From: Parasphingorhabdus litoris DSM 22379
GTDB lineage: Bacteria > Pseudomonadota > Alphaproteobacteria > Sphingomonadales > Sphingomonadaceae
Length of the DNA: 64,000 nt
NCBI RefSeq assembly: GCF_020906275.1
Contig: NZ_CP086727.1
Location: 1,736,001 to 1,800,000 of the forward strand
Reading direction: 5' to 3'
Part shown: positions 43,566 to 45,821 of the stretch, in pieces
Layout of the letters: each line of letters begins with the position of its first letter
How positions within the stretch are numbered: the first letter of the stretch is position 1
The notes under the pieces: model-generated
Database searches by the model: none
What the model saw: the letters and a program-made list of their open reading frames with translations, nothing else
Told to the model about the DNA's origin: nothing
Translations under genes and position numbers: made by a program

Positions 43566-43626
43566 GAAAAAATAATCCCTTAGACGAGGCCGCTGCATCG
43601 AGCAGCAGCATAGCTACGCCTAAGGG
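43566..43626 (-). terminator. Attenuator-like terminator upstream of leuA
   Basis: On the minus strand CCCTTAG (at the leader stop codon) pairs with CTAAGGG, closing a stem with inner GCTGC/GCAGC pairing, followed at once by ATTATTTTTTC. It lies about 70 bases before leuA and no other gene ends here, so its only plausible job is conditional termination of the leuA transcript. Confidence 0.75.
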
Positions 43627-43667
43627 CGCATAAGTCGGTGTAGCTCTAGGTTTGAGACACGTGCCAT
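43620..43667 (-). CDS. leuL: Candidate leuA leader peptide
   Basis: A 15-codon frame, MARVSNLELHRLMRP, lies between the presumed promoter and the terminator stem. It has three Leu codons in six, two of them the rare CTA. A weak TAAGAA Shine-Dalgarno lies upstream. The stop codon is part of the 5' arm of the terminator. Leader peptides rich in the end-product amino acid before leuA are known in proteobacteria; the exact switching order here is not textbook (Leu codons are about 20 bases before the stem). Confidence 0.6.
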   Translation of the reverse strand: MARVSNLELHRLMRP

Positions 43668-43839
43668 GGTCAATGTTCTTATCTGCTGCGGTGTAAAAAT
43701 CAACCATGCTGGTGAATTTATTTTGCAGGAAGTGAAACCTTTTCCCTCGCTTGCGCGAAACCATCAGCGAGCATGATGGCTCAACGAAATTATTTTTACC
43801 CCGAATCACAAGAACTTAAATCTTACCAAGGAACTGAAA

Positions 43840-44325
43840 ATGAAAAATCTAATTGTGCCATTGGCACTTGCACTCGCAGCGACAACCGGGACATTCGCGC
43901 TTCCGATCGACGCTGCCATAGCCGGCCCAACCTATACTGGGGTTAAAGGTGGAAACACTGCGGTAGGCGGATATGATGTCACGTCTTACTTCACCGGTAG
44001 CGGCGTTCCCGTGAAAGGCAGCAAAGCTCACAAAGTCACTTACAAGGGCGCTGACTATTATTTCAGCACGGCTGCCAACGCCAAAAAGTTTAAAGAAAAG
44101 CCAGCGCAATTTGCGCCGCAATATGGTGGCCATTGTGCCTGGGCCATGTCACGCGGCTCGCTCGCTCCCGGAGATCCGCTGGTTTACAAAGTGGTCGACG
44201 GCAAACTCTACCTTAACGTCAACAAACAGGTTCAGAAAACCTGGCTGACCGATGTTGCCGGCTTCATCAAAAAGGCAGACATTAATTGGCCGAAATTCCC
44301 AGACGACGCCAAATTTGGCGGCTGA
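43840..44325 (+). CDS. Exported YHS-domain protein (YHS 'seleno'-protein family), copy 1
   Basis: 161 residues with a signal peptide ending near AAIAG. The YHS domain spans most of the mature part: NTAVGGYDVTSYFTGSGVPVKGSKAHKVTYKGADYYFSTAANAKKF, PAQFAPQYGGHCAWAMSRG and DGKLYLNVNKQVQKTW. The Cys of GGHCAWA sits where some relatives carry selenocysteine, hence the family name. YHS domains are linked to metal (often copper) handling, but no biochemical role is proven for this group. AAGGA precedes the ATG. It is followed 60 bases later by the Cys-Ala repeat protein and then by a second YHS protein. Confidence 0.88.
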   Translation: MKNLIVPLALALAATTGTFALPIDAAIAGPTYTGVKGGNTAVGGYDVTSYFTGSGVPVKGSKAHKVTYKGADYYFSTAANAKKFKEKPAQFAPQYGGHCAWAMSRGSLAPGDPLVYKVVDGKLYLNVNKQVQKTWLTDVAGFIKKADINWPKFPDDAKFGG

Positions 44326-44385
44326 TCGGGTCCCAATTCGTCACGCACCAATCTAACTTAAACACGTATAATGAAGGAAAATACC

Positions 44386-44676
44386 ATGAATAACCAACGT
44401 AAACTTTCCACGATGCTCGCCATTATGGGTGGTCTGTCTCTTGCGACACCGTCAGTCGCATTGGCGACATGTGCGGCTGCCGCTCCAGCAGCCCAGGCAG
44501 CCTGTGGCGCCTGTGCAGCAGCAGCATGTGCCGCATCCTGCGGAGCCTGTGCCGCCGCTGCCTGCGGTGCCTGCGCCGCTGCTGAATGCGCTGCTGCCTG
44601 TGCCGCTGATGCCGGCGCTTGCGCCGCTCAACCAGCTGCTTGTGGCGCCTGTGCCGCCGCCTGTGCACCGCAATAA
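44386..44676 (+). CDS. Exported Cys/Ala-repeat protein between two YHS genes
   Basis: 96 residues from the ATG with AAGGA seven bases upstream; an in-frame ATG five codons earlier supplies that AAGGA and is not preferred. A signal peptide ends about residue 28 (SVALA). The mature 68 residues hold 14 Cys, nearly all others being Ala or Gly, with four CGAC boxes (residues 40-43, 52-55, 60-63, 86-89) and spacers of AAA or AAAA. There are almost no charged residues and no aromatics. Such regular CxxC chains suggest metal binding or extensive disulfides in the periplasm. I do not recognise the family; it lacks the features of DUF2282 bufferins, and no DUF692 maturase is nearby. Confidence 0.78.
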   Translation: MNNQRKLSTMLAIMGGLSLATPSVALATCAAAAPAAQAACGACAAAACAASCGACAAAACGACAAAECAAACAADAGACAAQPAACGACAAACAPQ

Positions 44677-44754
44677 AGAATAGTGGTTTGAGGGGGTTAG
44701 CTTGTGTTACAACCAGCTGCCTCCTCAGTTAGAATTTTGAAAAAGGACTTACCA

Positions 44755-45297
44755 ATGAACAAGACATTCCTCGCAGCCATCATGATGGCCACATTACCCA
44801 TTGCATGTTCTGCTCCCTCATCTGATACCGCAGAAACCAGCGAAACTGCCGAAACGGCGACCATTGTCGAAGTTTCCGATGACATGAAACTACCCGTTTT
44901 CACTGGTCCAGCCGGATCGGAAAATGTGGCTGTCAGCGGCTATGATACGGTCAGCTATTTTGAAGGTGACGGCGTGCCTGTGGAAGGCAGCAAGGATCAT
45001 CGCGTCAAATATAATGGCGTCGAATATCACTTTGCTTCAGCAGAAAATGCCGCCAAATTCCAAGCTGAGCCTGCGAAATATGCGCCGCAATATGGCGGAC
45101 ACTGCGCCTGGGCCGCATCACGGGGCAAGCTCGCATCTGGCGATCCTAACCTCTACGCGATTGTCGACGGCAAACTCTATTTGAACTTCAATCAACAGGT
45201 TCAGAACACCTGGAACGAGGATGTCACCGGCTTTATCGAAAAAGCCGACAAAGAATTCCCGAAAATTCCAGCGGACGCTCGTTACGATGACGCTTAA
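44755..45297 (+). CDS. YHS-domain lipoprotein (YHS 'seleno'-protein family), copy 2
   Basis: 180 residues from the ATG giving MNKTFLAAIMM, with AAAAGGAC upstream. Lipobox LPIACS makes it a lipoprotein. A Thr/Glu/Ala linker (about residues 22-45) leads to the YHS domain: NVAVSGYDTVSYFEGDGVPVEGSKDH, then YAPQYGGHCAWAASRG and DGKLYLNFNQQVQNTW. The domain is close to copy 1 but the anchoring differs (soluble versus lipid-anchored). It ends in a strong terminator, closing the three-gene group. Confidence 0.88.
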   Translation: MNKTFLAAIMMATLPIACSAPSSDTAETSETAETATIVEVSDDMKLPVFTGPAGSENVAVSGYDTVSYFEGDGVPVEGSKDHRVKYNGVEYHFASAENAAKFQAEPAKYAPQYGGHCAWAASRGKLASGDPNLYAIVDGKLYLNFNQQVQNTWNEDVTGFIEKADKEFPKIPADARYDDA

Positions 45298-45315
45298 TCG
45301 CAGGTCAAATAACTC

Positions 45316-45355
45316 AAAAGGGCGGTGGAACATGGTTCTGCCGCCCTTTTTATTT
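45316..45355 (+). terminator. Rho-independent terminator after the YHS cluster
   Basis: AAAAGGGCGG/CCGCCCTTTT stem with an inner GAAC/GTTC hairpin, followed by TATTTT. It separates the YHS cluster from the BLUF gene. Confidence 0.92.
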
Positions 45356-45422: not shown

Positions 45423-45821
45423 ATGTACAGACTTGTCTATATCAGCACGCCAAAACCGGATATCACTCCGGCAGAAATGGCCGATATCTTGCGCGTCGGG
45501 CGCCGGAATAATGTCAAGAACGGTATAACTGGTCTTTTGATCCAGGATAAAAGGCGCTTTCTTCAATATCTGGAAGGGGAAGAAGAGCAGGTCGAGGAGA
45601 CTTTCGCTCGGATATCCGCAGACAGACGCCATTCCGCGATAATCCAGCTGAAAAATGGTTATATCGGGCGCCGTCAATTTCCCAAATGGGAAATGGCATC
45701 AAAATATGTCGATGGTGACGCCAGTCTGCTATCGGCAGTCAAGGAACTGGTAAAAAACTGCGATCGCGATGTGGCAAATGAATTGATGAGCTTTGCCGAG
45801 GCCCGGGACCGCGCCGCGTAG
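45423..45821 (+). CDS. BLUF-domain blue-light photoreceptor, single domain
   Basis: 132 residues. The BLUF fold is clear: LVYIS with the flavin-contacting Tyr 6, NNVKNGITGLLI with Asn 30, and FLQYLEGEEEQVEETFARI with Gln 48, the Tyr-Gln pair of the photocycle; KNGYIGRRQFPKWEM follows. After the core (about residue 95) only a short helix of 35 residues remains, with no EAL, cyclase or other output domain. Such stand-alone members act through protein contacts. The partner is not identifiable; neighbours are the YHS cluster (behind a terminator) and ilvC on the opposite strand. Confidence 0.92.
   Translation: MYRLVYISTPKPDITPAEMADILRVGRRNNVKNGITGLLIQDKRRFLQYLEGEEEQVEETFARISADRRHSAIIQLKNGYIGRRQFPKWEMASKYVDGDASLLSAVKELVKNCDRDVANELMSFAEARDRAA

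Follow-up and report, generated by a model that had tools for sequence, protein, structure and literature searches.

Bufferin loci bring together the peptide BufA, the MNIO maturase BufB, a DUF2063 partner, DoxX and sigma-F/NrsF, and preliminary results mentioned by authors in the field indicate that what is recognized in a bufferin includes its signal peptide (PMC12452194). The sigma-F site of Caulobacter is GTAACC-N16-CGAA (PMC3511200), and the sites of S. meliloti RpoE7, which belongs to the same sigma group, resemble it (PMC6180224). The Caulobacter sigma-F regulon, which includes DUF692/DUF2282 clusters, is induced by copper. A sigF mutant shows poor growth in the presence of copper and a weakened resistance to oxidants in stationary phase, but it was no more sensitive to chromate or cadmium (PMC8224329). 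Induction of RpoE7 by H2O2, cadmium or chromate was not seen (PMC6180224). Another described family, NF038108, carries the name Cys-every-fifth RiPP peptide CefA; a literature text search with the phrase "Cys-every-fifth" found no paper.

The genome considered here (G000, 3.61 Mb in a single contig) contains a bufferin-type operon of its own, composed of a BufA-like peptide (28.7 bits with the BufA2 model, below the cut-off of 60), an MNIO BufB (343.3 bits, cut-off 310), an ECF sigma factor and NrsF (PF06532, 143.8 bits, cut-off 26.8). Elsewhere in the genome, in a 64-kb stretch of DNA that we refer to as the window, three genes for a YHS protein, a Cys-rich peptide and a second YHS protein lie together. 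The original prediction that no DUF692-type maturase is near this trio is correct for the locus, the MNIO operon being located at the other site. More broadly, no MNIO frame was detected by phmmer, using the MNIO of this genome, in 30 records of loci that combine YHS and Cys-repeat genes, several of which duplicate one genome, with flanks of up to 8 kb (wider for the window itself), some of them clipped by contig ends.

A YHS, Cys-repeat and YHS operon

The features of the locus are as follows.

43733..43759, plus strand: sigma-F (ECF16)-type promoter-like element, TGAAACC-N16-CGAA, 107 nt 5' of the YHS1 start codon
43840..44325, plus strand: YHS1, a YHS_seleno_dom protein of 161 aa with GGHCAWA (PF04945, NF041384), predicted by eye to be exported
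44386..44676, plus strand: putatively exported Cys/Ala-repeat peptide of 96 aa with 14 Cys and four CGAC; the ORF is under purifying selection
44386..44466, plus strand: predicted signal peptide (27 aa, last residues ALA, boundary placed by eye) at the start of the Cys-repeat peptide
44755..45297, plus strand: YHS2, a YHS_seleno_dom lipoprotein of 180 aa with GGHCAWA (PF04945, NF041384) and a lipobox-like LPIAC read by eye
45316..45350, plus strand: intrinsic-terminator-like hairpin of 16 pairs with a loop of 3, then a T-rich tail

Three co-oriented plus-strand genes closed by one terminator had been proposed, and the open reading frames, which run from 43840 to 45297 with gaps of 60 nt and then 78 nt, together with the hairpin that follows them, bear this out. 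The operon is flanked by leuA-like and ilvC-like genes, named by eye from their translations. A BLUF blue-light sensor protein (PF04940) is encoded at 45423-45821, between the operon and the ilvC-like gene, and BLUF-like ORFs were also seen by eye at three other loci (L012, L013 and L014). Between the leuA-like gene and the operon, a strongly conserved stretch at 43618-43660 contains the inverted repeat CGCCTAAGGGCG, for which an Rfam search gave no match near the gathering score.

Both outer proteins belong to the YHS family, with PF04945 scores of 40.8 bits for YHS1 and 41.3 bits for YHS2 (curated cut-off 30.3) and NF041384 YHS_seleno_dom scores of 141.5 and 148.5 bits (curated cut-off 70). 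These scores, and the signal peptide and lipobox read by eye, agree with the predicted series of an exported YHS protein, a Cys/Ala peptide and a YHS lipoprotein; the AlphaFold2 model of YHS1 has a mean pLDDT of 88.6. At the GGxC position the two proteins have Cys rather than selenocysteine. The prediction had placed selenocysteine at this position in some relatives, and this was not confirmed: among the matches listed, in a sample of part of the NF041384 family, the single match above cut-off with an in-frame TGA has it elsewhere and retains the Cys. One YHS relative (L326 in G531) has an in-frame TGA off the GGxC position and is likely a broken gene. A third YHS_seleno_dom gene of this genome, with GGFCTFG (G000:C1:2955188-2955523), lies far from the operon, and no Cys-repeat neighbour was noticed in its locus (L003).

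The middle gene encodes a signal-peptide-like start, read by eye and conserved in the aligned orthologues of the genus, followed by a mature part in which Cys residues are set in an Ala-rich chain. An alternative in-frame start lies upstream at 44371, and the start at 44386 is favored because of the orthologues and a Shine-Dalgarno-like AAGGA. Whether the frame is translated at all had been raised as one of the points on which the prediction might fail. Of the 14 orthologues in the genus, 11 were aligned, with L014, L016 and L017 omitted, and in these the frame is open with zero stops and a pN/pS of 0.107 (0.106 for the mature part), whereas the other five frames accumulate 9-25 stops in the gap-free core summed over the 11 sequences, and four of these five have pN/pS values of 2.2-3.9, one antisense frame giving 0.174. 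In residue comparisons among the same orthologues, Cys is retained at 97.7%, Pro at 92.7%, Ala at 90.1% and Gly at 83.2%, and 11 of the 17 columns that contain any Cys are all Cys. The frame thus looks translated, by the measure of its low pN/pS and its retained Cys. In the window, a Cys-repeat detector was positive in one of 18 tiles, the one holding the peptide gene.

Of 32 genomes of the genus, 14 contain the peptide, and in all 14 loci the order is YHS1, peptide, YHS lipoprotein, answering the proposed search for this order in related genomes. The peptide was undetected in the other 18, some assemblies being incomplete. A YHS_seleno_dom gene is present in 19 of the 32, and two genomes (G003 and G006) have the YHS lipoprotein without the peptide. 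For the YHS family a Cys-repeat neighbor is unusual. Among 80 named YHS loci sorted by eye, a Cys-repeat exported ORF adjoins the YHS gene in 13 (L071-L075, L078, L080-L085 and L098), with cores as varied as CGACAA, CGAAA, CAANP and CSACGAC, and in a sample of the phylum the pairing is rare, being found at one of 29 YHS loci within 1.5 kb on either side. In a single genome of another genus, titled uncultured Sphingorhabdus (L019/L085), leader, Cys repeat and YHS domain are fused in one protein, whose neighbors are a YHS lipoprotein and a peptide made purely of CxxC repeats. Together with this fusion, the constant order in the genus supports a functional connection of the Cys repeat with YHS, as judged from sequence comparison. 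One of the 13 loci (L071) comes from a metagenome-assembled genome titled Sulfitobacter, the contig of which bears the trio of this genus and is probably misbinned.

The claim that the peptide has no family stands insofar as no Pfam or NCBIfam model matches it at E values up to 1, DUF2282, BufA2 and NF038108 included, and is incomplete insofar as its leader ties it to peptides found beside DUF6969 genes, as described below. With bufferins the peptide has in common its short length and Cys content, a conserved leader, a sigma-F-type element and, by prediction, export; it differs in its YHS partners and its Cys-periodic, low-complexity core. Because the peptide matches no bufferin profile and no MNIO gene is adjacent, we do not file the operon as a bufferin. 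As for CefA, the relative at L082 scores 34.2 bits with NF038108 (cut-off 30) and that at L073 22.9. The L082 relative consists of (CAANP)n repeats and adjoins both YHS and DUF6969, whereas the window peptide has another Cys spacing, and matches between low-complexity sequences are no proof of kinship.

The promoter element and metal stress

The element TGAAACC-N16-CGAA stands upstream in every one of the 14 genus loci. Its ends do not vary, its spacer does, and in the alignment of the 14 upstream regions GTGAAACCTTT and CGAAA are the invariant blocks to either side of the spacer. It departs from the Caulobacter sigma-F site by one base, an A in the -35 where a T is published. At five further loci of 16 kb (L073, L078, L080, L081 and L082), all seven TGWAACC-N16-CGAA sites precede a YHS gene, five being exact TGTAACC-N16-CGAA sites before the YHS lipoprotein and two being TGAAACC sites before YHS1, and at L074 there is one site before each YHS gene. 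The pattern is absent at L083, L085/L019 and L319. At L055/G006 and L086 a sigma-F-like site precedes a YHS lipoprotein that lacks the peptide, and the element therefore tracks YHS at least as much as it does the peptide. In the same genus, a similar site precedes the BufA-like gene in 26 of 28 MNIO loci, 24 of these being TGTAACC.

By count the motif is modestly enriched, with 386 occurrences in the 32 genomes against 117 for a reversed control; for this genome alone the two counts are 14 and 8, and the one match in the 64-kb window is near chance (0.66 expected from mononucleotide shuffles with a looser pattern). The motif alone is weak evidence, and it is the footprint and the company of targets that carry weight. 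The 14 motif sites on G000:C1 delimit a putative sigma-F regulon for this genome, the bufferin-type operon among its members. Other TGTAACC sites in the genome precede genes for MsrA, an AhpC/TSA protein, DUF1223, a DUF2282 protein, DUF2147, an ArsM-like arsenite methyltransferase (below the NCBIfam cut-offs) and an FAD oxidoreductase-like protein, as well as three ORFs with no family above cut-off. The putative regulon also includes a His-rich exported protein (L377); the family scan covered the sites other than this one.

A metal setting had been proposed for the operon, and it gains support from a sigma-F-like promoter of the kind that precedes the bufferin-type operon. Membership in a metal-stress regulon is our best reading of the operon. 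The fuller proposal, of a periplasmic metal-stress operon under sigma-F/NrsF-type control in which the Cys peptide is a polythiol metal sink with YHS partners, we regard as an even call. According to this proposal, soft metals of the copper class would act at the envelope to make NrsF release its sigma factor, which would start transcription from the element at 43733-43759. The peptide, once made, would be exported by Sec, as its leader suggests, and would serve as a disordered polythiol sink in which closely spaced Cys residues bind soft metal ions. The soluble and the lipid-anchored YHS proteins, each with its invariant GGxC Cys, would hold or pass the same ligand, and the whole would function in the manner of a bufferin that has no MNIO enzyme next to it; DUF6969 is a candidate for a chaperone or maturase that works in trans. 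Metal binding and a YHS relay are what we infer from these features. Against the metal reading, RpoE7 was not seen to be induced by H2O2, cadmium or chromate and the sigF mutant was no more sensitive to chromate or cadmium (PMC6180224, PMC8224329), and some of the peptides linked to DUF6969 have only two Cys after the leader and more Asp/Glu.

DUF6969 and a shared leader

DUF6969 (PF22308), for which a literature search with this single name found no paper, is encoded by one gene found in this genome, approximately 0.87 Mb from the operon, and is present in 28 of the 32 genus genomes. In all 29 genus loci a Cys/Ala peptide adjoins the gene. The peptide resembles a lipoprotein in 28 of them, carries MLAVAGGLALAVPALSAC or a variant as its leader, and has 2 to 16 Cys behind it. 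In this genome such a second, lipoprotein-like Cys/Ala peptide lies directly 5' of DUF6969 (G000:C1:2653719-2654672; L174 1168-2121), and no sigma-F-like site was found in the 1.2 kb upstream of this locus. Cys residues behind the leader number only 2 in four linked peptides of the genus (L152, L154, L167 and L177), which contain 20-22 Asp/Glu.

The window operon has no adjacent DUF6969 gene, but its peptide shares a related leader, scoring E 2.5e-4 against a profile trained on 21 DUF6969-linked leaders chosen by a GGL regular expression. Of 27 YHS-linked Cys peptides, each scored from its own start, 20 fall below E 0.01, those missed being at L012, L071, L074, L081 and L098 and the two proteins of L085. 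Among 15,927 ORFs, the profile gave 25 unique matches below E 0.01 outside the training loci, all of them Cys-repeat peptides; four are copies of training sequences, and 18 of the remaining 21 are YHS-linked. As a DNA pattern, the leader occurs at three places in the genome, namely the two Cys/Ala peptides and one membrane protein.

Beyond the genus, DUF6969 was detected in 20 of 398 genomes of the phylum sample, and a Cys-repeat ORF was seen by eye, partly in wider flanks, near 17 of 21 loci; one of the four without it (L271) begins at a contig end. With a fixed detector and 1.5 kb to either side, a Cys repeat was called at 10 of 20 phylum DUF6969 loci versus 1 of 57 controls (p 1.6e-6), the lone positive control being a true YHS-Cys locus. 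DUF6969 is also present in 12 of 13 genomes with a YHS-adjoining Cys repeat against 4 of 37 without (p 1.8e-7), a test that covers 50 of the 80 named loci, is uncorrected for relatedness and includes three loci (L072, L075 and L085) that duplicate G026, G025 and G261. The exception is the Sulfitobacter-titled L071, with a contig resembling this genus. Restricted to Sphingomonadales, hand-sorted from titles and gene order and likewise uncorrected for relatedness, the figures are 11/11 versus 2/11 (p 2.2e-4). In four of the 13 loci that pair YHS with a Cys repeat (L078, L082, L083 and L098), DUF6969 is adjacent.

In an alignment of 30 DUF6969 sequences the invariant residues include Y55, H56, H58, E67-H72, H104, N123, R177 and D178, with invariant His residues in YHxH and EHGHFH, which suggests that the protein may hold a metal site; its AlphaFold2 model has a pLDDT of 93.6. 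We tentatively propose, while considering it somewhat doubtful, that DUF6969 recognizes the leader and modifies or loads the Cys residues before Sec export, which would be a new, MNIO-independent maturation serving two sphingomonad peptides, one at the DUF6969 locus and one in the sigma-F YHS operon. With a looser pattern, the sigma-F-like motif was found at 2 of 29 genus DUF6969 records and at 1 of 15 others, and that most of these loci are without it argues against one shared response. In Skermanella, DUF6969 has genes of the sigma-70 and NrsF families no more than 2 kb away. Two of 92 DUF6969 locus records, many of which overlap, also hold an MNIO frame (L287 and L289), and DUF3179 occurs near two DUF6969 loci (L288 and L289).

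Sulfur, oxidants and the place of the operon

A different chemistry for the same thiols would be the carriage of sulfane sulfur, with the peptide loading, storing or passing persulfide or thiosulfate-derived sulfur in the periplasm, the YHS Cys residues acting as transfer partners and DUF6969 serving the system. Rhodanese genes near DUF6969 at L266, L276, L277, L331 and L332 and YeeE/YedE-type Sulf_transp genes at the last four of these (both by Pfam) are consistent with this, as are look-alike neighbors at L274 (by eye) and proteins next door to DUF6969 in which NPC repeats are joined to a SoxA/TsdA-type cytochrome c domain (L232, L234 and L285, and by eye a similar fusion at L236); CCP_MauG also matches part of the cytochrome c domain in the first three fusions. 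However, these neighbors sit at DUF6969 loci of other families, and the promoter elements of the YHS loci point to a metal-stress regulon. As no sulfur genes of this sort were recognized among the recurrent neighbors of YHS loci, we rank metal over sulfur for the window operon and consider the sulfur reading unlikely.

The peptide and its YHS partners could instead be a sink for oxidants that shields envelope thiols or methionines, with metals mattering only indirectly, given that MsrA and an AhpC/TSA protein have the motif in front of them too and that stationary-phase cells of the Caulobacter sigF mutant resist oxidants less well (PMC8224329); dense Cys arrays in which nearly every Cys is kept suggest ligand geometry more than disposable thiol, and we judge this role rather improbable. 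That the genes are unrelated passengers, a low-complexity exported peptide with no joint YHS function held in place by the ilv-leu neighborhood, would fit the missing Cys-repeat neighbor at 67 of 80 named and 28 of 29 phylum-sample YHS loci (in the DNA covered, 1.5 kb to either side for the phylum), but is very improbable in view of the trio order in 14 of 14 genus loci, the Cys-repeat-YHS fusion and strong purifying selection on the peptide.

If the metal-stress reading is true, the sigma-F envelope metal response would gain an exported polythiol peptide that has no MNIO enzyme beside it, and YHS (seleno)proteins would acquire a genetic partner. The window peptide belongs to a wider set of Cys-repeat peptides that elsewhere are accompanied by the uncharacterized DUF6969, and for this Pfam family of unknown function the prediction is that it would act on Cys-repeat peptides, possibly through the signal peptide that they share.
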